Shown in pieces: positions 12,733 through 25,705 of a stretch of DNA of 42,161 nt (within the stretch, counting starts at the first letter, position 1; the number at the start of each line of letters is the position of its first letter). Source of the DNA: Melioribacter roseus (GTDB taxonomy: Bacteria; Bacteroidota; Ignavibacteria; Ignavibacteriales; Melioribacteraceae); the NCBI GenBank assembly GCA_020722005.1, contig DYLP01000021.1, forward strand, positions 1-42,161. Reading direction: 5' to 3'. A program made the translations under genes and the position numbers. The notes beneath the pieces are model-generated. The model worked only from the letters and a program-made list of their open reading frames with translations, did not search any database and had not been told where the DNA came from.

Positions 12733-12884
12733 CTGTGCTGGTTGTCCATCTCTTTAATTCTGCACGATATTATTTTCCAGTGAACTCACTTCAATTTTAC
12801 CACAAACCATTACTGACTTAGCATAAGAAAATTTTCCCTTAAAAATTGTTTTTCTTAAATTATCCCTACAATTTATTCGGAATT

Positions 12885-13673
12885 ATGATGAACTATTTGG
12901 CAGAAAAAGACGAATACATTACACTAAAAAGTAGTAAGCCAGTTTTTCCATCATTTGGATTTTACCTTTTTAGACTGCTCAAAGTTGTTTACACATCTAA
13001 CCGTCTGGCGGTCAAAGGCAAATACGACGATGGAAAATGGATTGAAGCATCGTATCGTATTTTAAGAGGACTTGAAAAGACTGGAGTGCGATTCCACGTC
13101 GACGGAATGAGCAATATCAAAAAAGTTGAGGGTCCGGTAATTTTCATATCGAACCATATGAGCATACTCGAAACGTTTGTTTTCCCGTGCATTATTCATC
13201 CAATTAAGAAAGTTGTATTTGTCATGAAAGAAGAACTGGTACGTTTTCCATTGTTTGGACCTGTCTCAGCAGCGTGTGACCCAATCCTTGTATCGAGGAA
13301 AAATCCTCGTGAGGATTTAATGGCGGTATTGAATCAGGGAGCCGAGAAAATAAAATCGGGCAAATCAATCATTATCTTTCCTCAACGCACTCGCTCTCTC
13401 TATCTCGATGTTAAATCGTTCAATACACTCGGAATTAAACTGGCAAAGAAAAACAACGTTCCAGTTATTCCTGTGGCTCTAATCTCAGATGCGTGGGCAA
13501 ATGGAAAATTCTTAAAAGACTTTGGCAAAATCGATCCCTCAAAAGAAGTTAAAATTAGTTACGGCGAACCAATCGAAATTAAATCGAACGGCAACGAGGA
13601 ACATCTCAGGACTATTGAATTCATCAAGAATAAATTTATTGAGTGGGGCAGAGCGGATTTGATAAAGGAATGA
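12885..13673 (+). CDS. Lysophospholipid acyltransferase-family (PlsC-like) protein
   Basis: Members of this family move an acyl chain to lysophosphatidate or related lipid acceptors at the inner membrane. I place the start at the ATG at 12885 (an adjacent ATG is at 12888); an upstream TTG at 12846 is less likely. The product has 262 residues. Motif I reads NHMSILE, so the catalytic H-x4-D has Glu in place of Asp. Motif III reads FPQRTRS where the family normally has FPEGTRS. Motif IV is kept as VPVIPVALI. It has no clear transmembrane helix beyond a hydrophobic N-terminal patch. The acceptor may thus differ from lysophosphatidate. It stands alone after the tRNA cluster. Confidence 0.82.
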   Translation: MMNYLAEKDEYITLKSSKPVFPSFGFYLFRLLKVVYTSNRLAVKGKYDDGKWIEASYRILRGLEKTGVRFHVDGMSNIKKVEGPVIFISNHMSILETFVFPCIIHPIKKVVFVMKEELVRFPLFGPVSAACDPILVSRKNPREDLMAVLNQGAEKIKSGKSIIIFPQRTRSLYLDVKSFNTLGIKLAKKNNVPVIPVALISDAWANGKFLKDFGKIDPSKEVKISYGEPIEIKSNGNEEHLRTIEFIKNKFIEWGRADLIKE

Positions 13674-14641: not shown

Positions 14642-14697
14642 TTAACATTACCTTAACACCCACTTAACATTCCGTTAATATTAGTCTCTTAGGTTTG
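14642..14697 (+). promoter_or_regulatory. Pho-box-like promoter: four TTAACA repeats at 11-bp period plus TAGGTTTG
   Basis: TTAACA occurs at 14642, 14653 and 14664, with TTAATA at 14675, each start exactly 11 bp from the last. The -7 element TAGGTTTG (14690-14697, TAnnTTTG pattern) lies 26 bp after the third repeat. PhoB/PhoP-family response regulators bind direct repeats with an 11-bp period, and TT(A/C/T)ACA with 5-bp spacing is the Bacillus PhoP form. The same register occurs at 19444-19488 before the porin-pst operon. The binding regulator is not in the window. Confidence 0.75.
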
Positions 14698-14725
14698 CAG
14701 TGTAACATTCAAGGAGAGAGAAAAA

Positions 14726-17524
14726 ATGAATTATTTATTTACAACCGGAAAGAAAATGTCCAAACTGATCAAAACAATTCAACTTATCTTACTATTTATT
14801 GGAATGCTATCATTTCAAATATCCGCACAAACTAACAAAGGAACTATTAAAGGAAAAGTTATAGATGCGGAAAGCGGCGAACCGATTATTGGTGCCAATG
14901 TATTGCTAAAGGGTACTACTACTGGAGCAGCAAGCGATATAGAAGGTAATTATGTAATTGAAAACGTACCAAGTGGAAAATATGAATTAATTGTCAGTTA
15001 TATCTCATTTGCAAAAACACGAATCCCAAATATAATTATTAAAGGAGGAGAGGTAGTAATACAGAACGTTGCTCTCAAACCAGAGGCAGTTGCAGTTGAC
15101 GAAGTAGTTGTAACCAGTAAAGCTGACGAATCCTACGAAGCGGCTCTGTTAAATAAACAGAAAAAATCTGTTTCTATTAGTGACGGTATTAGTGCTGAAC
15201 AAATAAAAAGGTCGCCCGACGCAACTTCGAGCGATGCGTTAAAACGTGTAACGGGAATATCTGTAGTCGACAATAAATTCATTTTTGTAAGAGGTACAAG
15301 TGAACGCTATAGTAATGCACTTTTGAATAATTCTCCGCTTTCCAGTACAGAACCCGATAAAAAATCATTTGCCTTCGATTTGATTCCGTCCAATCTTCTT
15401 GCCAATACTGTTATCGACAAATCGTATACTCCGGATAAACCGGGCGATTTTGCTGGAGGTCTTGTAAATCTCAATACTATCGATTTCCCGGACAAATTGA
15501 AATTAAACATAACAATCGATGGTTCCTTTATGAACAATACTTCATTGTCAGATTTTAAGACTTATAATGGTGGGAAGCTGGATTTTCTGGGTATCGATGA
15601 TGGCACCAGAAGTCTTCCTTCCTCGATACCTTCAGATTTGAGTAAAGGAAATTATTCACCCGAAGAAATGCTCGAATTTGCAAAATCGTTGCCGAACAAC
15701 TGGTCGTCTTATTCGAAGAAAGCTCCTTTGAACGGTGGATTTATGATTTCAGTTGGTGATGGTGTTTCACTGTTCGGTCCGCGTTTTGGTTTTATTGCCG
15801 CAATTTCGTATAAAAATAATTTTAGCAAAACCAATTTAGAGCGTAATGAATACGAAGCAAGCGGTGAAACTCGTTTTAATTATGCAGGTCAACAATATAA
15901 ATATTCTACTTTGTGGGGTGGGCTATTAAATCTCAGTTATAAACTCGGAGACAATCATAAATTTAGTTTTAAAAATACATACAGTCATACCTCCGACGAC
16001 GAAGTTTCGGAATTACAGGGCATGCAGTATACCGATTCTGGTACTGAGCAAATTCAAAACGCAATCAGATTTACTTCTCGTCAGGTTTATAATAGTCAAT
16101 TATCAGGTGAACATTACTTCGGTAAATCGTTTCAAACTCAATGGCGTTTATATAATTCTATTTCAAAACGCGATGAACCCGATTATCGACGTGTGATTTA
16201 TGCTCGGGAAATAGGGAGTAATGATAATTTTGCTGCACTCTTAGGATTTCAGGTCAATCTTAAAAATGGCGGACGTTTCTATTCAAATCTCGACGAGTCA
16301 ACTACCGGATTCGCTACAGATTTCAGTATGCCTTTTGATAAGCTGAAATTCAAATTTGGTGGTTTGTATGAAAATAAAGATAGAGAATTTAGATCTCGCT
16401 TGATCGGAACAATTATAAACGCTCCAGGTAACGGTTTTACAGATTTTAGACTCCTTTATTTACCAATCGATCAGATATTCAGCCCCGAAAATTATAGAAG
16501 GAACGGTTTCTCGATACAGGAATATCTGAATGGAACAAATAATTATAACGCAGGACAAACAATTTCAGCATTTTACTTAATGTTTGAATACGGTTTCAAC
16601 TTTTACGGGAACGAGCTTAAATTTATTGGTGGTGCTCGTTTAGAAAATTCGAAGCAGACAGTTAAATCCAGAGACCTTTCCGACCAAAAAGATATTTTAA
16701 TTGAACATAAAAACAACGACATTTTGCCTTCTCTGAATTTGATCTATCAACTGAGCGAGTCTTCAAATCTTAGGTTTTCTGTAAGTCAAACTGTAAATCG
16801 ACCTGAATTAAGAGAACTGGCTCCATTTGCATATTTCGATTTCTATACTCAGACCTCGATACGTGGTAATAGTGAACTCAAACGTGCGGTTATTAACAAT
16901 TATGATTTCCGGTACGAGTCCTATTTCGGAATTGGAGAAATGATTTCTGCAAGTCTTTTTTATAAAGATATAAAAGACGCCATTGAACAAGTTGTGGTTT
17001 CTGGTAGCGCTCTTGGCTCCGAAAGAACTTACCGAAATTCTGATAATGCAAAAGTTTATGGACTCGAACTGGAAGGCAGATTCGGATTGGGTAGAATTAC
17101 CGGATTACTTTCGAATTTTTTCATAAACGGAAATTATACACGCATCCAATCATCTGTTACAGTTGAAGGTACGGAAACCACAATTGCACGGAACGGCAGA
17201 CCTCTGCAAGGACAATCGCCATATACAATAAATATTGGCTTGTCTTATAACAGCGAAGACCTGGGCACAAGTATAACATTCTTATATAACAGAATTGGTG
17301 AAAGAATAATTGAGGTGGCTACTGCTTATCAGGAAGATATTGTGGAAGAGCCGCGCGATGTTATCGACTTTGTAATCAATAAAAAATTAACAGATAACCT
17401 ATCATTGAAGTTTGCAGCGAAAGATCTCCTCGGAAGGGACCAAATTTTTAGGCAGGGCGATAAAAAAGCACGCCTTAACAGTAGAGAATCAGCAGTTTCA
17501 ATTAGCATTTCATATAAAATATAA
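14726..17524 (+). CDS. TonB-dependent receptor, probably phosphate-regulated
   Basis: This is an outer-membrane TonB-gated barrel of 932 residues. After a signal peptide (cleavage near QISAQT, about residue 35) comes a carboxypeptidase-regulatory-like beta-sandwich at about 38-115 (GTIKGKVIDAESGEPIIGANV), then a plug domain (LKRVTGISVVDNKFIFVRG) and the barrel, ending SISISYKI. A strong ribosome site (AAGGAGAG) precedes the ATG. No SusD partner is present; instead a T9SS beta-helix protein follows after 15 bp. The promoter carries four 11-bp-spaced TTAACA repeats and the pst operon is downstream, so uptake of phosphate or an organic phosphorus compound under phosphate limitation is inferred. 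The ligand is not shown by sequence. Confidence 0.9.
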   Translation: MNYLFTTGKKMSKLIKTIQLILLFIGMLSFQISAQTNKGTIKGKVIDAESGEPIIGANVLLKGTTTGAASDIEGNYVIENVPSGKYELIVSYISFAKTRIPNIIIKGGEVVIQNVALKPEAVAVDEVVVTSKADESYEAALLNKQKKSVSISDGISAEQIKRSPDATSSDALKRVTGISVVDNKFIFVRGTSERYSNALLNNSPLSSTEPDKKSFAFDLIPSNLLANTVIDKSYTPDKPGDFAGGLVNLNTIDFPDKLKLNITIDGSFMNNTSLSDFKTYNGGKLDFLGIDDGTRSLPSSIPSDLSKGNYSPEEMLEFAKSLPNNWSSYSKKAPLNGGFMISVGDGVSLFGPRFGFIAAISYKNNFSKTNLERNEYEASGETRFNYAGQQYKYSTLWGGLLNLSYKLGDNHKFSFKNTYSHTSDDEVSELQGMQYTDSGTEQIQNAIRFTSRQVYNSQLSGEHYFGKSFQTQWRLYNSISKRDEPDYRRVIYAREIGSNDNFAALLGFQVNLKNGGRFYSNLDESTTGFATDFSMPFDKLKFKFGGLYENKDREFRSRLIGTIINAPGNGFTDFRLLYLPIDQIFSPENYRRNGFSIQEYLNGTNNYNAGQTISAFYLMFEYGFNFYGNELKFIGGARLENSKQTVKSRDLSDQKDILIEHKNNDILPSLNLIYQLSESSNLRFSVSQTVNRPELRELAPFAYFDFYTQTSIRGNSELKRAVINNYDFRYESYFGIGEMISASLFYKDIKDAIEQVVVSGSALGSERTYRNSDNAKVYGLELEGRFGLGRITGLLSNFFINGNYTRIQSSVTVEGTETTIARNGRPLQGQSPYTINIGLSYNSEDLGTSITFLYNRIGERIIEVATAYQEDIVEEPRDVIDFVINKKLTDNLSLKFAAKDLLGRDQIFRQGDKKARLNSRESAVSISISYKI

Positions 17525-17539
17525 TTAAGGAGGTACAAA

Positions 17540-19177
17540 ATGCACAAACGTATATTACTACTACTATTCTTTTTCTATGGAATATCTCTCTATGCTCAAT
17601 TAGCCTCATACGATGAAGTATTGGAAGGAGAGATCAATTCGGATTTAACATTAGACGCAAATAAGAAGTATTTATTGAGGGGATTTGTTAATGTAAATGA
17701 GGGTGCTACATTGACAATCCCCGCCGGTACAATAATATACGGCGAGAAATCTTCGAAAGGGACGTTGATCATAAATCGGGGAGCGAAGATTAACGCAGTA
17801 GGAACACCCAGTCGTCCAATAATATTTACGAGTCAGCAGCCAGCCGGTCAAAGAGGAGCAGGAGATTGGGGAGGAATAATCATAGCAGGTAAGGCAAGAA
17901 TAAATGTGCCAGGAGGAACAGCGGTAATAGAGGGTGGAACAGGTACAATATACGGAGGAGGAGATAATCCGGATGACAACGATAATAGTGGACGAATGAG
18001 TTACGTTAGGATAGAATTTCCGGGTATAGCATTTTTGCCGGATAATGAAATAAATGGTTTGACGTTGGCAGCAGTAGGGCGAGGTACAACGATTGACCAC
18101 ATACAGGTTAGCTATTCTGGAGACGATTCGTATGAATTTTTCGGAGGTACGGTAAATGCAAAGTATTTGATATCGTACAAAGGAGTGGACGATGAATTCG
18201 ATACGGATTTTGGATACAGAGGCAATCTGCAATTTCTGGTAGCATATAGAGACAAAAATATAGCTGACATAAGCGGCAGTAACGGATTTGAATCTGACAA
18301 TGATGGAACGGGAACATTGAACGAGCCCCGTACACGTCCGATATTTTCAAATGTAACGATGATAGGTCCATTGGTTACACCTGATTATACAGAATATAAT
18401 CCTAATTTCAAACGAGGAATGCACTTGCGCAGGTCGACGTTGACGTCGGTATACAATTCAATAATCATGGGTTATCCTGTAGGATTATATCTCGACGGAG
18501 AGAATAGCGTAGCAGGAGCGCAGTCAGATAGTCTACAGATACGCAATACAATAATAGCCGGAGCTCAGAGTGGAAAAAATCTAACGACGAACGTTTCAGG
18601 GTTTGATGTGTCGTCATGGTTTAAGACCTCTTCATATTCGAACCATGAATTTGCAACGAGTGCCGAAGTAAAATTAGTTGATCCATTCAATCAGAGTAAT
18701 CCCAATGCAATTCCAATGGGAGGTTCACCGGCTGCAAGTGGAGCAAGTTTTGATAATCCACGTTTGAGTGGCGGTTTCTTTGAAGTTGTCGACTATATTG
18801 GTGCATTTGATCCTTCAGGTGTTAGATGGGATGAACACTGGGCTAATTACGACCCACAATTTACGGACTATATAATCACGAGCGTGGAAGAGGAATACAC
18901 AAATATAATTTCTGCAGGTTACGAACTGAGTCAGAATTATCCTAATCCGTTTAATCCAACTACCACAATTTCATTTGTATTGCCAAAGTCGGGCAATGTA
19001 AAATTGACAGTTTATAATGTCCTTGGCCAAGAAATCGAAAAATTAATTAACGGGTATAAAGAAGCAGGAAAGTATAATATTAACTGGAACGCAAACAATC
19101 TGCCTTCAGGACTCTACATCTACCGATTGGAAACTGAAAATTACGTAGTATCCAGGAAAATGACATTATTAAAATAA
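17540..19177 (+). CDS. Secreted beta-helix protein with T9SS C-terminal sorting domain, partner of the TonB receptor
   Basis: The product has 545 residues: a signal peptide (MHKRILLLLFFFYGISLYAQ), a long region with glycine/isoleucine-rich turns resembling a right-handed parallel beta-helix at about 30-330 (GATLTIPAGTIIYG, GDWGGIIIAG, then acidic DDSYEFFGG and DDEFDTDFGY), and a T9SS type A sorting domain over the last 80 residues (NYPNPFNPTT...MTLLK). It should be exported through the type IX system and held on the cell surface. The acidic loops could bind metal. It has a perfect ribosome site (AAGGAGGT) 15 bp after the receptor gene, so the two form one unit. The beta-helix part uses ATA for isoleucine far more than the sorting domain or neighbouring genes do. 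Its function is unknown. Confidence 0.88.
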   Translation: MHKRILLLLFFFYGISLYAQLASYDEVLEGEINSDLTLDANKKYLLRGFVNVNEGATLTIPAGTIIYGEKSSKGTLIINRGAKINAVGTPSRPIIFTSQQPAGQRGAGDWGGIIIAGKARINVPGGTAVIEGGTGTIYGGGDNPDDNDNSGRMSYVRIEFPGIAFLPDNEINGLTLAAVGRGTTIDHIQVSYSGDDSYEFFGGTVNAKYLISYKGVDDEFDTDFGYRGNLQFLVAYRDKNIADISGSNGFESDNDGTGTLNEPRTRPIFSNVTMIGPLVTPDYTEYNPNFKRGMHLRRSTLTSVYNSIIMGYPVGLYLDGENSVAGAQSDSLQIRNTIIAGAQSGKNLTTNVSGFDVSSWFKTSSYSNHEFATSAEVKLVDPFNQSNPNAIPMGGSPAASGASFDNPRLSGGFFEVVDYIGAFDPSGVRWDEHWANYDPQFTDYIITSVEEEYTNIISAGYELSQNYPNPFNPTTTISFVLPKSGNVKLTVYNVLGQEIEKLINGYKEAGKYNINWNANNLPSGLYIYRLETENYVVSRKMTLLK

Positions 19178-19199
19178 ACTTCTCTCTCCTCTCTTCCAG

Positions 19200-19229
19200 A
19201 AGGCGTTCCGTTCTCCGGCGGAACGCCTT
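19200..19229 (+). terminator. Strong hairpin terminator after the receptor/beta-helix unit
   Basis: An 11-bp stem AAGGCGTTCCG / CGGAACGCCTT with an 8-nt loop is followed by TTATTTATTTAATT. It starts 22 bp after the stop of the T9SS protein and ends the two-gene unit. The rest of the gap to 19443 is AT-rich, with scattered TTTACA motifs (19352, 19361, 19376) that are not 11-bp phased, and no gene. Confidence 0.85.
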
Positions 19230-19443
19230 ATTTATTTAATTCCCTTATTTCCTCAGCTGAAAACTAAGTTAATCTTTATTTGAACTTTTTTAATATGCTC
19301 TTACCTTAGACTTAAAATTTGCACAAATGAGGCAATGCCCGGTAATAAATATTTACAGCATTTACACGAACAAAATTTACAGGTATTCTGTAAAATTTAT
19401 ACAATCATATAATTTATACCTCACTTTTATAGAATCAATAGAT

Positions 19444-19488
19444 TTAACAATTTCTTAACATTTCGAATACTTATAATTCTTATAATTG
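19444..19488 (+). promoter_or_regulatory. Pho-box-like promoter of the porin-pst operon
   Basis: TTAACA at 19444 and 19455 (11-bp period) is followed by a degenerate third unit at 19466 and TATAATTG at 19481-19488. The second repeat is 26 bp from the -10, exactly as the third repeat is at 14664. This shared register supports one regulator for both promoters. Confidence 0.65.
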
Positions 19489-19526: not shown

Positions 19527-20543
19527 GTGAGCAAGAAAATTGTTCTACCAGAAATTACGTTCTTTTTAATGATTACAATTCAGATATCAGCACAAAACCT
19601 TCCAAAAATAAGCGGACTTGTATTTGGGGATTATTTTTACAACGTTAAACATAATATTAATCAGGATAGTGACATCAACGGATTTCAATTCAGAAGAATT
19701 TATTTTACAACTGACTTTAAAATATCCGAAAAGTTCAGTACGCGTTTCAGACTCGAATCGAGCTGGCAGAATTCAAATTTTAATACTATAGTCAGAGATG
19801 CATGGTTGAAATGGAACGGGATTTTCGATGGCTCGGATGTTATAATCGGTTTATCGCCAACTCCGGCTTTCAGTGTTTCAGAAGAAGCATGGGGGTACCG
19901 CTTCCTTGAAAAAACGATTCTCGATTATAACAAAATCGTATCGAGCAGAGATATGGGGCTTGACCTTAAAGGTAATCTGACATCAAACGGTAATATCAAA
20001 TACTGGCTTAAAATTGGCAACAATTCCAAAAGCGGAATAGAGAACGACAAATACAAAAGATACTATTCGCTTTTGCAGTTCAATCCTACGGACGATATTA
20101 CACTGACAGCATATTTTGATTATGCTTCTTCGGGTAGGATTGAGGACGGATTTACAAATTCATTCAAAGACAACAACAGTATTGTAACGGCTGTCTTCCT
20201 TGGTTATTCGTATAATAATTTTAATTTTGGAGTCGAGTCGTTCTACTGTAAAATTGAAAATAATTTCTATAAATCTTTAACGTCTCCGCTTACACACCAA
20301 AATTCATATGGTGTGTCAGCATGGAGTCATTTCCGATTAAAAGAAAAATTAAAACTCATTTGTCGTATCGATTATTTCGAACCGAATACGGATTTATCTA
20401 AAGACGAAAATACACTAATTCTTGCAGCTCTGGATTTTATTCCCGATAAATCGGTTCATATTTCTCCCAATATTGAGATCGTTACTTACGGCAGTGGAGA
20501 CCCGGATATCGTTCCGCGCATTTCGTTTTACTGGAAATTTTAA
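19527..20543 (+). CDS. Phosphate-selective porin O/P-family outer-membrane protein
   Basis: This is a barrel porin of the OprP/OprO type, expected to let phosphate or polyphosphate cross the outer membrane. It has 338 residues: signal peptide (MSKKIVLPEITFFLMITIQISAQ), then alternating beta strands such as NGFQFRRIYFTTDFKISEKFSTRFRLE and RDAWLKW, ending in the aromatic FYWKF. The start is GTG at 19527, 6-15 bp after a purine run with GAGAGGAGAG. It is the first gene of a seven-gene run with pstS 22 bp downstream, and has a Pho-box-like promoter, which supports phosphate as substrate. Confidence 0.86.
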   Translation: MSKKIVLPEITFFLMITIQISAQNLPKISGLVFGDYFYNVKHNINQDSDINGFQFRRIYFTTDFKISEKFSTRFRLESSWQNSNFNTIVRDAWLKWNGIFDGSDVIIGLSPTPAFSVSEEAWGYRFLEKTILDYNKIVSSRDMGLDLKGNLTSNGNIKYWLKIGNNSKSGIENDKYKRYYSLLQFNPTDDITLTAYFDYASSGRIEDGFTNSFKDNNSIVTAVFLGYSYNNFNFGVESFYCKIENNFYKSLTSPLTHQNSYGVSAWSHFRLKEKLKLICRIDYFEPNTDLSKDENTLILAALDFIPDKSVHISPNIEIVTYGSGDPDIVPRISFYWKF

Positions 20544-20565: not shown

Positions 20566-21615
20566 ATGTACAACAAAATAGTTTATTTAATGATATTCAT
20601 GATCGCAGGTATGATAAACGTCCCGGCGCAGGTAAAGCTCAACGGAGCCGGTGCGACTTTCCCATACGTTATTTATTCAAAATGGTTCGACGAATTTCAT
20701 AAACAAACAGGCGTACAGATTAATTATCAATCGATTGGAAGTGGCGGGGGAATTAAACAAGTAATCGAAGGGACAGTCGATTTCGGCGCAAGCGACGGAC
20801 CGATGAGCGACGAACAGCTTAAAGAAGCTAAAGCTAAACAGGGTACAGATATAATTCATATGCCCACAGTTCTCGGTGCTGTTGTGCTCAGCTATAATCT
20901 ACCTGAAGTAAAAGAAAAAATTAAACTCGACGGGCAAACAATTGCCGATATTTTCCTTGGAAAGATTTATAAGTGGAACGATAAAAGAATTGCTAAACTT
21001 AATCCGGGAGTTAAACTCCCTAACAAAAGCATAATTGTAGTCCATCGTTCAGACGGCAGTGGCACGACTTTCATCTATACGCATTATCTTTCAAATGTTA
21101 GCAAAGAATGGGCTAAAAAAGTAGGCTACAATACATCGGTTAACTGGCCTATCGGATTGGGTGGCAAAGGGAATGAAGGCGTGGCTGGAATGATTAAGCA
21201 AACTTCTGGTGCAATTGGATATGTGGAGCTTGCTTATGCAGTAAAAAATAAACTTCCATATGCTCTCATAAAAAATCGAGCTGGAAATTTTATCGAAGCG
21301 AATTTCAAGACGGTTTCAGCCGCTTCCGACGGCGCTGCTAATAATATGCCGGATGACCTGCGAGCCATGATTACTAATGCCGACGGAAAAAATTCCTATC
21401 CAATTTCCGGTTTTACCTGGCTTCTGATTTATAAAAATATGAAAGACAAAAAGAAAACCGAAGCACTGGTCAAATTTTTAAGATGGGCTTTGACCAAAGG
21501 TGAATCGTATGCTGAAAGTCTTTACTATGCTCCTTTACCACCTTCAGTTGTTAAATTGTGTATGAAAAAAATCGATATGCTGACGGTAAATGGAAAACCG
21601 ATAGAGGTGAAATAA
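20566..21615 (+). CDS. pstS: Periplasmic phosphate-binding protein
   Basis: PstS captures phosphate for the Pst ABC importer. The 349-residue product has a signal peptide (through about INVPAQ), and the phosphate-site segments GAGATFPYVIYSKW, SIGSGGGIKQ, FGASDGPMS and HRSDGSGTTFIYTHYLS, all intact. No lipobox cysteine is seen, so it is soluble. AAGGAG precedes the ATG. It lies between the OprP-like porin gene and pstC. Confidence 0.96.
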   Translation: MYNKIVYLMIFMIAGMINVPAQVKLNGAGATFPYVIYSKWFDEFHKQTGVQINYQSIGSGGGIKQVIEGTVDFGASDGPMSDEQLKEAKAKQGTDIIHMPTVLGAVVLSYNLPEVKEKIKLDGQTIADIFLGKIYKWNDKRIAKLNPGVKLPNKSIIVVHRSDGSGTTFIYTHYLSNVSKEWAKKVGYNTSVNWPIGLGGKGNEGVAGMIKQTSGAIGYVELAYAVKNKLPYALIKNRAGNFIEANFKTVSAASDGAANNMPDDLRAMITNADGKNSYPISGFTWLLIYKNMKDKKKTEALVKFLRWALTKGESYAESLYYAPLPPSVVKLCMKKIDMLTVNGKPIEVK

Positions 21616-21629
21616 ATTTAATAGGAAAA

Positions 21630-22574
21630 ATGAAATCCGTTAAAAAATCAGTAAAATCGTCACGTGTTTATATCGGCGACTTAATTTATGAAAAGATGAC
21701 TTTGATTTTTGCCATCATAGTCTTTATGATGGTAATATTGATGGGATACGAAATGTATATCAATTCGAAAATGTCGATAGATAAATTCGGGTGGAATTTT
21801 CTAACCGAGACAACATGGGACCCCGTAGAGGAAATCTACGGGGCTCTTCCGTCAATTTACGGAACGTTAGTTTCTTCATTCCTTGCATTGTTGATGGTGG
21901 TTCCACTTAGTCTGGCTGTTGCCATTTATCTGGCAGAATCTGCTCCGGGATGGCTCGAAAAACCTTTGTCCTTTATGGTCGAATTATTAGCTGGCGTACC
22001 GAGTATTGTTTATGGCTTGTGGGGAATATTTGTGCTGGTTCCCTGGTTGCGCGAAGAAGTCGAACCGTTTCTCAATGAACATTTCGGATTTCTACCTTTC
22101 TTTGACGGACCTATGTATGGATTCGGCATGCTGGCAGCCGCAATTATTCTCTCTATTATGGTACTGCCAATTATTACTTCGATATCACGTGACATTATGA
22201 AATCGGTACCATCTATACAAAAAGAAGCAGCTCTTGCATTGGGGGCTACAAAATGGGAAGCCATTAAAATTGTATTGAAGAATTCAAAATCGGGAATCCT
22301 CGGCGCTATTATGCTCGGATTGGGAAGAGCAATTGGAGAAACAATGGCTGTAACAATGGTTATTGGCAATCGCCCGATTATTTCAGAATCGCTTTTTGAT
22401 CCTGGATACACTATGGCAAGTATTATTGCCAATGAATTTACAGAAGCTACTACCGAACTCTATTTGAGTGCATTAATCGAACTGGCGTTAATTCTGTTCG
22501 TTATAACAATCATTATAAATATTGCGGCACGTTTATTAGTCTGGAGTCTGGAAAAACAATGGAAGCGGAATTAA
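21630..22574 (+). CDS. pstC: Phosphate ABC transporter permease
   Basis: PstC is an inner-membrane subunit of the phosphate importer. I start it at the ATG at 21630, which has AGGA in front and follows pstS by 14 bp; an in-frame ATG at 21558 would lie inside pstS. The 314-residue product has about six membrane helices, the family stretch GVPSIVYGLWGIFVLVPW, and the ATPase-coupling EAA loop KEAALALGATKWEAIKIVL. Its end overlaps pstA by 16 bp. Confidence 0.94.
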   Translation: MKSVKKSVKSSRVYIGDLIYEKMTLIFAIIVFMMVILMGYEMYINSKMSIDKFGWNFLTETTWDPVEEIYGALPSIYGTLVSSFLALLMVVPLSLAVAIYLAESAPGWLEKPLSFMVELLAGVPSIVYGLWGIFVLVPWLREEVEPFLNEHFGFLPFFDGPMYGFGMLAAAIILSIMVLPIITSISRDIMKSVPSIQKEAALALGATKWEAIKIVLKNSKSGILGAIMLGLGRAIGETMAVTMVIGNRPIISESLFDPGYTMASIIANEFTEATTELYLSALIELALILFVITIIINIAARLLVWSLEKQWKRN

Positions 22575-23425
22575 AAAATTACAAACGTCGACTGAAATAC
22601 AGAAAAGCGATTAATTTAATCGTTAATTCATTAACATTCATTGCTGCGTTGATTGCTATTCTGCCGCTACTTTTAATTTTTTATTACACGGTTTCGAAAG
22701 GCATCAGCAGATTGAACCTCGAATTTTTCATCGAGATGCCCAAACCTGTAGGTGAATCCGGCGGAGGAATGGCAAATGCGATTGTAGGAACATTGATTTT
22801 GGTGGGAATAGGAGGTGTAATCGGATTGCCCGTTGGAATTATGTCAGGAATTTATCTGGCTGAATTTGGAAATAACAAATTCGGACAATTATTGAGATTT
22901 TTGACGGATGTTTTAAGCGGTGTTCCGTCGATTGTTATTGGTGTTGTTGCCTATACAATTGTTGTTATTCCGATGGAACAATTTTCTGCATTGGCAGGTG
23001 GAGTAGCACTGGCAATTCTTATGATTCCAACAATTACCAGAACTACGGAAGAAATGATTAAGTTGGTTCCACATAGCTATCGCGAAGCAGGACTCGGATT
23101 GGGTATTCCAAAATGGAAAACTTCTCTATTCATTGTTTTGAGAACAGCCTGGAAAGGGATTGCAACCGGCGTATTGCTCGGGTTATCTAGAGCAGCAGGT
23201 GAAACAGCACCATTGTTATTCACGGCACTCGGCAACCGATTCTGGTCTACAAATGTTTTTGAACCGATTGCTTCTCTTACGGTTTACATCTATGATTATG
23301 CACGAGCTCCTTTTGAAGACTGGAATGCTCAAGCCTGGACTGCTGCACTTGTTCTGATAATTTTAATTTCTTTACTAAGTTTAACATTCAAAATAATTAC
23401 TCGTTCAAAATACAAAACCAATTGA
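22559..23425 (+). CDS. pstA: Phosphate ABC transporter permease
   Basis: PstA is the second membrane subunit of the importer. It has 288 residues, about six helices, the paralogous stretch [17 protein letters not shown], and the EAA coupling loop [21 protein letters not shown]. It starts inside the last codons of pstC and its stop overlaps a TTG start of the first pstB, so the operon is tightly coupled. Confidence 0.94.
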
Positions 23426-24237
23426 ATTTGTCCGTGAGCAGAATACCTGTAACAAATATTATTTACGAAAGTAGCAAAGTAACCGAAGAAGAGGCTTTAA
23501 TTTCTACAAAAAGCTTATCGGCATACTTCGGTGAAAAACAGGCTCTGTTTGAGGTTAATCTAAATATTCCTGAAAAACAGGTTACCGCTATTATTGGTCC
23601 TTCCGGGTGCGGTAAGTCTACGTTCCTTCGCTGCCTGAACAGAATGCACGAAGTAATAGGTGGAACTTATACCGGAAGTATTTTATTCGACCGCACTGAT
23701 TTAAGAGATATCAACCCGGTAGAACTCAGAAGAAGAATTGGAATGGTATTTCAGAAACCGAATCCGTTTCCAACGATGTCGATAATGAATAATGTGGTCG
23801 CCGGGTTAAAATTAAACGGAATGCGCGATAAAAAATTATTAAAAGAAATTGCCGAGGAAAATTTAAAGAAAGTCGGATTGTGGGATGAAGTAAAAGATAA
23901 TCTTAACCGTTCTGGCGCCAGTATTTCTGGCGGTCAACAACAAAGATTATGCATTGCACGTACAATTGCTCTTAATCCCGAAGTGATTTTAATGGACGAA
24001 CCGACAAGTGCTTTAGACCCGATTGCCACTGCTAAAATAGAAGATTTGATCTATGAATTGAAAAAAGAATATACCATTATAATTGTAACGCACAACATGC
24101 AACAGGCTGCTCGAATAAGCGACTATACGGCTTTCTTTTATATGGGAAGATTGATTGAATTCGACAATACAAAAAAAATATTTACTAATCCTTCAAAAAA
24201 ACAGACTGAAGAATATATTTCCGGACGTTTCGGTTGA
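23422..24237 (+). CDS. pstB: Phosphate ABC transporter ATPase, first copy
   Basis: This is the ATPase of the phosphate importer. Walker [10 protein letters not shown] is at 59-67, the Q loop is in VFQKPNPFP, the signature is [15 protein letters not shown], Walker B is VILMDEP with TSALDP, and the switch His is in VTHNMQQ. It is complete and about 30 residues longer at the N-terminus than usual. The start is uncertain: TTG at 23422 overlaps the pstA stop (TTGA) and GTG at 23434 is an alternative; neither has a ribosome site. A second pstB follows 4 bp later. Confidence 0.93.
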
Positions 24238-24241
24238 TATC

Positions 24242-24994
24242 ATGAATATTATAGAAGTAAAAAATCTCAACCTATTTTACGGTAAGTTCCAGGCATTGAA
24301 AGATATTTCGATTGATATTAAAATGAACAAGATTACTGCACTTATTGGACCTTCAGGTTGCGGTAAATCGACATTCCTTAGATGCCTCAACAGGATGAAC
24401 GATTTGATAAACGGAGTTAAAATTAAAGGGGACGTCATAATAGACGGTAAAAATATCTATAAAGACAGAATCGATATCGTAGAATTGAGGAAAAATGTCG
24501 GAATGATTTTTCAAAAATCGAATCCCTTTCCGATGTCAATTTTCGACAATGTAGCATATGGTCCCCGTATCAACGGTATACGCGATAAAAAACAACTCGA
24601 AGAAATTGTTGAAAATACTCTAAGAAAGGCTGCTCTCTGGGAAGAAGTAAAAGACGACCTGAAAAAGAGTGGAATGTCGCTAAGCGGTGGTCAACAGCAG
24701 AGGCTTTGTATTGCGCGCGCCCTTGCCGTCGAACCTAAAATAATTTTAATGGACGAACCAGCAAGCGCTCTTGACCCGATTTCCACTACTAAAATCGAGG
24801 ACTTAATTTTTGAGTTGAAAAAAAATTATACAATTGTTATAGTTACACATAATATGCAACAGGCTGCCCGTGTAAGTGACGAAACTGCATTATTTTATAT
24901 GGGTGAATTGATTGAATTTAACGAAACAAAAAAATTATTTACCGCACCCGAAAATGAAAAAACAGAAGCTTATATAAGCGGTAAATTTGGATAA
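24242..24994 (+). CDS. pstB: Phosphate ABC transporter ATPase, second tandem copy
   Basis: This is a second complete PstB of 250 residues. Walker [10 protein letters not shown] is at 36-44; the Q loop [20 protein letters not shown], signature [16 protein letters not shown], Walker [14 protein letters not shown] and switch VTHNMQQ follow. The start is the ATG at 24242; the frame is open upstream but that part lies within the first pstB. The two copies are alike around the catalytic motifs but differ in the stretch after the Q loop ([15 protein letters not shown] against [16 protein letters not shown]), so this is an old duplication or two acquired lineages. This copy has the more usual PstB form (FDNVAYGPR). 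Confidence 0.94.
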
Positions 24995-25009: not shown

Positions 25010-25705
25010 ATGCAGGAACATTTTAACGCTGAAATAGAAAGTCTTAAAAATAATCTTATTAAAATGGCTTCGATTGTCGATGAACAAGTCGAAAGGGTAA
25101 TTGAAGCGCTCGAAACCGGTAAAGTCGAATTATGTCAGGGAGTTAAATCGCGTGATCTTGAAGTTGATGCCTACGACAATTTAATTCAAGCTCAATGTGA
25201 AAATATTCTGGCTCTGTTTCAACCTTTTGCTGCCGACCTCCGTTTTATTATCTCTGCAATGATGATCAATAATCAACTTGAACGCTGCGGCGATATAGCC
25301 GTTAACATTGCCAAACGCGTAAAAAAAACAGCTAACAATTATCCTCTGATTGTCGAAGCGCAAATTAACGAAATGGGTAAGCAAGCACGTAAAATGTTAA
25401 AAGACGCAATCAATTCTTATATTTATAACGACAGCCAACTGGCTGAAACCGTTATGAAAGAAGACGAAATTGTCGATCAGTTTAATAAACAAGCTTTCAA
25501 ATTCCTCGTTTCAAAAATGCAATCTAATCCGGAATTAATCGAGCCGTGTTCACATTTGATTGTTATGACAAAACATATTGAACGACTTGCCGACCACGCT
25601 ACAAATATTGCCGAGGACTTGGTTTTTTATGTAGAAGCAAAAATAATTTCTCACAAAAAGAAATTGCAAAAGCTGGAAAAAGATCAACCAGAAGATGATA
25701 ATTGA
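25010..25705 (+). CDS. phoU: Phosphate signalling regulator
   Basis: PhoU links the Pst transporter to the PhoR sensor kinase and dampens the phosphate response. The 231-residue helical protein has two three-helix repeats with the family signatures RDLEVDAYDNLIQ, PFAADLRFIISAMMINNQLERCGDIAVNIAKR and HIERLADHATNIAEDLVFYVEAK. GGAG precedes the ATG and it follows the second pstB by 15 bp. It closes the operon; phoB and phoR are not in the window. Confidence 0.95.
   Translation: MQEHFNAEIESLKNNLIKMASIVDEQVERVIEALETGKVELCQGVKSRDLEVDAYDNLIQAQCENILALFQPFAADLRFIISAMMINNQLERCGDIAVNIAKRVKKTANNYPLIVEAQINEMGKQARKMLKDAINSYIYNDSQLAETVMKEDEIVDQFNKQAFKFLVSKMQSNPELIEPCSHLIVMTKHIERLADHATNIAEDLVFYVEAKIISHKKKLQKLEKDQPEDDN

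Follow-up and report, generated by a model that had tools for sequence, protein, structure and literature searches.

A Candidate Pho Box Upstream of a TonB-Dependent Receptor/Beta-Helix Operon and of the pst Operon in Melioribacter roseus

In a stretch of 42,161 nucleotides from Melioribacter roseus (assembly GCA_020722005.1, contig DYLP01000021.1, positions 1 to 42,161; hereafter the window), two promoters carry TTAACA-type direct repeats with a period of 11 bp. The first precedes the genes for a TonB-dependent receptor and for a surface protein with a sorting tail of the type IX secretion system (T9SS), the second a porin-like gene followed by the phosphate transport genes pst and phoU. Very probably these repeats are a Pho box and the receptor/beta-helix operon and the pst operon are both under PhoB-like control, and the pair would capture and import phosphorus. 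This reading builds on the box, its register relative to the -10 element, its conservation, the gene linkage, the predicted fold and an invariant residue site. Within the limits of sequence evidence, Pho control of the pair has good support, and the capture of phosphorus by the pair seems likely.

Repeat Arrays and Promoters

The following promoter features were read in the window:

14642..14680, + strand: four-unit candidate Pho-box array, period 11 bp, with TTAACA at 14642, 14653 and 14664 and TTAATA at 14675
14690..14697, + strand: -10-like element TAGGTTTG, an exact TAnnTTTG, 26 bp past the start of the third unit (14664)
19200..19229, + strand: terminator-like hairpin found by direct reading, inverted repeat AAGGCGTTCCG/CGGAACGCCTT, with a poor T-run after the stem
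19444..19460, + strand: two-unit candidate Pho-box array found by direct reading, TTAACA at 19444 and 19455
19481..19488, + strand: -10-like element TATAATTG, TAnnATTG with one mismatch, 26 bp past the unit at 19455

An earlier note on this DNA had described these repeats and their exact 11-bp steps, and all six units were recovered by direct reading. The same holds for the distance of 26 bp between one repeat of each promoter and a TAnnTTTG-like -10, which is exact at 14690 and has one mismatch at 19481. As the hairpin separates both gene groups, they probably form two transcription units.

For the evaluation of the arrays, 29 sites of relatives went into a sequence-only box model (R1), from which the window species and its congener G001 were excluded. 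The four-unit array is the top R1 match in the 2.66-Mb genome (44 bits, E 4.7e-11) and is not a product of chance. The exact pattern TTAACA-N5-TTAACA occurs four times genome-wide, three of these copies lying within the two promoters, and the reversed control pattern occurs three times, so that two-unit arrays alone are weak evidence. With two mismatches allowed, the control is even the commoner one (985 against 481 sites). The pst-promoter array reaches 17/24 by simple matching, and its two perfect units are also present at the pst promoter of G001 and of a further relative, G007. The fourth exact match (C28:4110, minus strand) is probably a chance occurrence, as only a 90-amino-acid TTG open reading frame (ORF) and a second short ORF, which shares its DNA with a gene on the other strand, lie behind it. 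A further candidate at C78:7724 (E 0.26) is located inside a 743-amino-acid ORF on the same strand and was set aside.

Conservation of the Box in Related Genomes

The box was searched in 40 related loci (662 kb), which had been chosen for a pst or surface-protein gene. Four TTAACA units with a period of 11 bp (at least 20/24 matching positions) were found at 49 sites, none at periods of 8, 9, 10, 12 or 13 bp, and 12 permuted hexamers at period 11 gave 0 to 2 sites each. Receptor upstream regions were taken from genomes selected for the protein, regardless of the box. Among these 27 relatives, 26 reach at least 19/24 at period 11 and 24 reach 20, while periods of 8, 9, 10, 12, 13 and 14 bp give 0/27 each. 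A box was found upstream of 9 of the 419 other ORFs of at least 150 amino acids in the same loci. The regulon claim rests on this footprinting, with the array before the receptor in 26/27 relatives and in 0/27 at six other periods.

Upstream of the porin gene, 9 of 13 relatives score at least 21 and the remaining four 13 to 17; among these low-scoring ones, two perfect units are retained in G001 and G007, as in the window. In addition, boxes are located at the PstS promoters of three loci (L093, L122 and L130), the one in L122 sitting before a PstS gene that precedes the porin. In L097 the box of the receptor is the sole box found in the stretch. No Pho box described for this bacterial group was found in the literature searched, the Ignavibacteria papers having been judged by title and start of the abstract.

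From scans of the related loci 48 box sites were hand-picked. Five of the 49 four-unit matches were not taken, two of them being opposite-strand readings of a receptor box and three lying without a clear gene there. In the alignment of all 48 sites the two -10 columns show T in 40/48 and A in 40/48 at a fixed distance to the array, and four is the usual number of units before the receptor. R1 comprises 29 of these 48 sites; the window's two, those of G001, the rows lacking TA at the -10 register and five rows with a TA from an extra repeat were dropped. After removal of the window and G001, TA stands at this register in 34 of the 45 rows left, and because rows without it were dropped, the -10 of R1 is stronger than it would be in an unselected set.

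Genes Located Downstream of the Box

R1 was searched against 56 genomes (E<=0.001; G033 and G057 left out) and gave 114 matches in 46 of them, all of which were placed on the DNA and assigned a next gene. This gene encodes the receptor in 35 cases, with two genomes giving two overlapping matches to one array. Genes of phosphate and lipid types follow with PlcP-like phosphoesterases (16), porin-like proteins (11), OlsF-like (6) and GT-like proteins (5), as well as binding proteins of the PstS-like (4), PstS (2) and phosphonate-binding (2) types. The remaining matches precede histidine kinases (2), small proteins (7), a 112-amino-acid family (3), T9SS-tail-only proteins (2), other genes (10) or no ORF (9).

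The earlier note had made its proposal depend on enrichment of the motif before known Pho genes. Here, 46 of the 79 non-receptor matches lie before genes of the pst, porin-like, PlcP-like, OlsF-like, GT-like, PstS-like or phosphonate-binding types, and the proposal was not refuted on this point. In 27/46 genomes the receptor is the gene behind the strongest R1 match; as receptor sites make up 15 of the 29 in the training set, this is owed in part to how the model was built.

Among the members scanned with Pfam, calcineurin-like phosphoesterase, acyltransferase plus GNAT, and phosphonate-binding domains were identified. The labels PlcP, OlsF and GT are our own assignments, based on Pfam domains and on known low-phosphate lipid remodelling, and that of 3 of the 11 porin-like proteins, a family of 427-473 amino acids without a Pfam hit, is likewise our own and weak. 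One boxed T9SS protein (L227) contains a 5′-nucleotidase C-terminal domain.

In the M. roseus genome itself, the second-best R1 match (E 5.9e-4) is located before the gene of a PlcP-like phosphoesterase of 301 amino acids. The divergent neighbor of this gene, encoding 335 amino acids with weak similarity to CDP-glycerol glycerophosphotransferases, is preceded by a weak match (E 0.36). The recognized phosphate genes behind boxes in this genome are only the pst operon, with its weak match, and the PlcP-like gene.

Furthermore, a small secreted-looking protein of 109-131 amino acids lies behind a Pho box in seven genomes (e.g., L177:287-628, L195:2382-2726 and L197:2472-2801); the one member scanned has no Pfam hit. 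In two genomes (L203:292-1443 and L216:273-1442) the gene immediately after a Pho box encodes a histidine kinase whose N-terminal part is of an unfamiliar kind.

The Receptor/Beta-Helix Pair and Its Neighborhood

The first unit comprises two genes:

14726..17524, + strand: TonB-dependent receptor of 932 amino acids with CarboxypepD_reg, plug and barrel domains (Pfam)
17540..19177, + strand: surface protein of 545 amino acids with a putative signal peptide, a predicted right-handed beta-helix and a T9SS type A sorting tail (Por_Secre_tail; helix by model), ElpS/FII-like

The nearest NCBIfam model of the receptor is TIGR01782 (TonB-Xanth-Caul), with 254.5 bits under a cut-off of 310. The earlier note had described a receptor and a T9SS beta-helix protein without SusD, and this agrees with our data, as the receptor domains and the tail were identified by Pfam and the helix by structure prediction. 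No SusD family was found among the 20 window ORFs scanned, and membership in the SusCD/PusCD type was rejected for this reason.

In 28 related loci the receptor adjoins the beta-helix gene 27 times, and the remaining locus begins at a contig end; these are 28 of the 30 non-window beta-helix loci, G019:C215 being omitted and G030:C616 added only later. In named genomes, drawn from the best 80 of 567 relatives, a receptor is located beside or near the beta-helix gene in 35 of 40 mapped loci, and two of the other five lie at a contig end. Of these 80 records 41 were mapped, the 39 best matched in the T9SS tail were left unmapped, and one mapped tail-only match (L278) was excluded from the 40. This near-constant adjacency, in relatives as well as in named genomes, speaks for a receptor partner of the beta-helix protein. 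The pst genes are found in the same stretch in 7/28 related loci and in the window, and because they recur near the pair in different gene orders, the linkage survives rearrangement.

Among the matches listed, the nearest named record is an uncultured Ignavibacterium (66% identity), phoR-phoB lies divergent from the pair in three Flavobacterium loci, one Allomuricauda and one Chryseobacterium, and a Latescibacterota genome shows pstC-like, pstB and phoU genes after the pair.

Several further observations were made on the pair. Plasmid records of Pseudoalteromonas and Hymenobacter carry it with the surface-protein gene first, and a Marinobacter plasmid record carries a beta-helix copy without a full receptor annotated alongside. 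On the Pseudoalteromonas plasmid (L320:1-10294) the pair is located behind a DUF3450-ExbB-ExbB-ExbD-TonB-TPR set, i.e., its own energizing genes. Several relatives encode a doubled beta-helix protein in a single frame of about 950-1000 amino acids (L099:8915-11758, L103:8766-11648). Finally, the window has an acyltransferase gene (PF01553) at 12846-13673; 10 of the 40 related stretches carry such a gene upstream of the receptor, of the porin or of pst, and in the scan of the related loci it was assigned no box.

Predicted Fold and Invariant Residues of the Surface Protein

An AlphaFold2 model of the surface protein, computed from 17 sequences, is fairly confident (pLDDT 85.7). Its VIA-align neighbors are the NosD domain (Z 23.2, root-mean-square deviation (rmsd) 3.2, 272 residues aligned), the AlgE4 A-module (Z 23.1, rmsd 3.2, 269 aligned) and Pel9A (Z 22.1, rmsd 3.5, 300 aligned). 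The protein is thus modeled as a right-handed beta-helix. At E<=0.001 plain Foldseek returned a single match, and its TM-score was poor. By sequence no PDB chain matches the beta-helix, the one profile hit being to the T9SS tail (E 0.069). Since a shared fold shows no function, membership among polygalacturonases or pectate lyases is not claimed.

Conservation was counted in 50 aligned proteins from several phyla that passed filters for length and coverage. E170, D195, D196, E199, D217, D221, E251, D253 and R297 are invariant (50/50), D218 is kept in 49 and D223 in 43. The two acidic sets are 22 residues apart, a spacing which would fit stacking on adjacent coils, and they may form a metal site. 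This set may resemble the calcium site of the PL9 enzyme Pel9A.

Tentatively, and with a rather low probability, the ElpS/FII-type beta-helix could be a dedicated phosphorus-capture protein with one metal-dependent site, in which D195/D196/E199, D217/D218/D221, E170, E251 and D253 hold calcium and, with R297, a phosphoryl group and the ligand is handed to the receptor. If this were true, the phosphoryl group would belong to a polymer or a metal-phosphate complex, and a SusD-independent, Pho-controlled phosphorus capture machine would exist across Bacteroidota, Ignavibacteria and other phyla. The invariant residue cluster makes the function of the pair directly testable.

The pst Operon and the Candidate Regulator

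The second unit consists of the following genes:

19527..20543, + strand: porin-like protein of 338 amino acids with a GTG start; opens the pst operon and has homologues before pst in relatives
20566..21615, + strand: pstS (TIGR00975, 407.2 bits, cut-off 205)
21558..22574, + strand: pstC, mechanical ORF (TIGR02138, 322.2 bits, cut-off 196.45)
22559..23425, + strand: pstA (TIGR00974, 286.8 bits, cut-off 193.45)
23422..24237, + strand: pstB, first copy (TIGR00972, 386.3 bits, cut-off 343.2)
24155..24994, + strand: pstB, second copy (TIGR00972, 425.6 bits, cut-off 343.2)
25010..25705, + strand: phoU (TIGR02135, 189.7 bits, cut-off 130.25)

The earlier note had placed the second promoter before a porin-pstSCAB-phoU operon. 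The NCBIfam assignments bear this out for pstS-C-A-B-B-phoU, but the 338-amino-acid protein has no Pfam or NCBIfam hit and owes its name to that note and to its place before pst. The pstC ORF overlaps pstS, and its true start is probably located further downstream. The tandem overlapping pstB genes (23422-24994) are both present in G001 and G007, and most other mapped pst operons show one.

The best candidate for PhoB is encoded at C11:52832-53509, and a histidine-kinase-like gene comes after it. Two Flavobacterium species and one Chryseobacterium account for three of the five loci with phoR-phoB beside the pair; their PhoB proteins share 49-52% identity with this candidate, against 30-34% with the next two full-length OmpR-type regulators of the genome.

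Model of Regulation and Alternative Explanations

Regulator, induction, ligand and direction of transport would be as follows. When phosphate is scarce, the PhoB-like regulator of the genome would bind both arrays. The four-unit box would switch on the two-gene operon of TonB-dependent receptor and T9SS-delivered beta-helix protein, and the weaker two-unit box would help to switch on porin-pstSCABB-phoU. Tandem binding of the PhoB type may recruit the polymerase and replace the normal upstream promoter element, the last unit starting 15 bp upstream of TAnnTTTG. At the cell surface, the beta-helix protein would probably capture or process a phosphorus-bearing ligand, which the receptor would import with TonB energy, and PstSCAB would then take up the phosphate.

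Several results weigh against this model. The pst-promoter array is weak when taken alone (R1 13.5 bits, E 0.16), and one relative, G015 (L123), has a receptor without a box (15/24). In the named set only 10 of 31 upstream regions, mostly from Bacteroidota and one from Ignavibacterium, reach 19/24, though at six other periods 0/31 do. Ten of the 56 genomes give no R1 match at E<=0.001, with strict filters, and for 19 of the 114 matches the next gene is unrelated-looking or absent. In addition, many of the R1 matches are partly by construction, because of the 29 training sites 15 are receptor sites and nine are porin, PstS, PlcP or other sites of the same genomes. With 221.7 bits, the PhoB candidate stays below the curated threshold of TIGR02154 (296.2). 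Finally, in Caulobacter cc0171 was constitutive, its deletion did not abolish ElpS production, and phosphate uptake through Cc0171 was not demonstrated (PMC2996285).

An origin of the repeats by chance in an AT-rich intergenic region would fit the similar frequency of two-unit arrays and their reversed pattern (4 vs 3) and the E of 0.16 for the array at 19444, but for the first array it is rejected by the R1 E value and by the period and permuted-hexamer controls, and together with the presence of the array in 26/27 relatives this leaves it practically no probability. A binding of the arrays by another OmpR-type regulator, e.g., an ArcA-like or redox one, with the phosphate link of the first unit being incidental, is improbable. 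It could draw on the at least two further full-length OmpR-type regulators of the genome and on the PhoP motif of Riemerella, which was reported to be similar to that of E. coli ArcA (PMC9603813); however, the box targets in relatives are largely phosphate and lipid-remodelling-type genes, and phoBR adjoins the pair in Flavobacterium-type genomes.

Less easily dismissed, though still the less probable case, is that the pair is Pho-controlled and not a transport system. The beta-helix protein would then aid a secreted phosphatase or act on surface polymers, and the receptor would be a sensor or an importer of phosphorus-free cargo. ElpS is tied to extracellular alkaline phosphatase activity (PMC2996285), glycan binding or hydrolysis was suggested for FI/FII by Lidbury et al. 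(PMC8115612), and the modeled helix resembles polysaccharide lyases and epimerases such as Pel9A and AlgE4. The near-constant receptor adjacency (27/28 related loci; 35/40 named loci, from the best 80 of 567) argues against it. Under Pho control with phosphorus import, which we prefer, the placing of the first unit in one regulon with pst, as the earlier note had proposed, is in agreement with the box before the receptor in 26/27 relatives and with the largely phosphate-related other targets. Judged by these genomic patterns, the receptor pair very probably takes part in phosphorus scavenging in these bacteria.

Comparison with Known Systems

The unit of the B. subtilis PhoP box is TT(A/C/T)ACA-like, and the TAnnTTTG element is, as we take it, of the Bacteroidota type. 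PHO boxes are described as 11-nt direct-repeat units bound head-to-tail (PMC4415409), with which the 11-bp repeats that the earlier note had ascribed to PhoB/PhoP-type binding agree. The window units are thus like the boxes of E. coli PhoB and B. subtilis PhoP in their 11-nt direct repeats, but differ in preceding a TAnnTTTG element and in the four units usual before the receptor. Furthermore, Riemerella PhoP binds a motif with the core TTTAACA (PMC9603813), and B. fragilis PhoB binds the pstC promoter (PMC3547664).

The pair is of a known kind, since two published examples exist, Caulobacter ElpS/Cc0171 and Flavobacterium Fjoh_0546/0545, and phosphate starvation induces the surface partner in each. 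The "little-known route" of the earlier note is therefore only partly new, as the pairing of receptor and surface protein has been published (PMC2996285, PMC8115612). In Caulobacter crescentus, ElpS (Cc0170) is a surface lipoprotein made on phosphate starvation and encoded beside the TonB-dependent receptor Cc0171, and the authors point to homologues in Shewanella and Bacteroides (PMC2996285). ElpS is a lipoprotein with type II-dependent release, encoded beside type II secretion system genes, whereas the window protein has a T9SS tail and is encoded beside pst. The N-terminus of the window protein (MHKRILLLLFFFYGISLYAQLASYDE) has no lipobox cysteine and hence lacks the lipoprotein anchor of ElpS/FII, which is probably not defining. 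The likeness to ElpS is judged from its published description, and its beta-helix fold is assumed through FI/FII.

In Flavobacterium johnsoniae the proteins FI, FII and FIII are 31-36% identical to the Caulobacter lipoprotein, and the receptor Fjoh_0545 and Fjoh_0546 (FII), encoded beside phoBR, are strongly induced by low phosphate (PMC8115612). This cluster, PUSIV, resembles the window in its receptor, a surface protein of the pectin-lyase-fold type (IPR011050) and an OprP-type porin gene, and PlcP, whose relatives are boxed here, is also low-phosphate-induced. It differs in that FII has been described as a lipoprotein, that phoBR and not pst stands at its center, and that the OprP gene was not induced; the main text contains no occurrence of "pho box" (PMC8115612). 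In Flavobacterium fontis, homologues of the receptor (32% identity) and of the beta-helix protein (39%) occupy the same place beside phoR-phoB. In two Flavobacterium loci the beta-helix homologues at the matching place show 39-40% identity, the likeness to Fjoh_0546 being one of gene place. The SusCD-like PusCD system likewise combines a TonB receptor with a surface partner under induction by phosphate starvation (PMC8115612), but in the window this partner is a predicted beta-helix and not SusD.

New in comparison with these systems are the order-wide Pho box, the linkage to pst, the T9SS tail replacing the lipid anchor and the invariant acidic cluster with one arginine. They provide a sequence-defined candidate Pho box for this group and a widespread uncharacterized receptor/beta-helix pair tied to the box and to pst.

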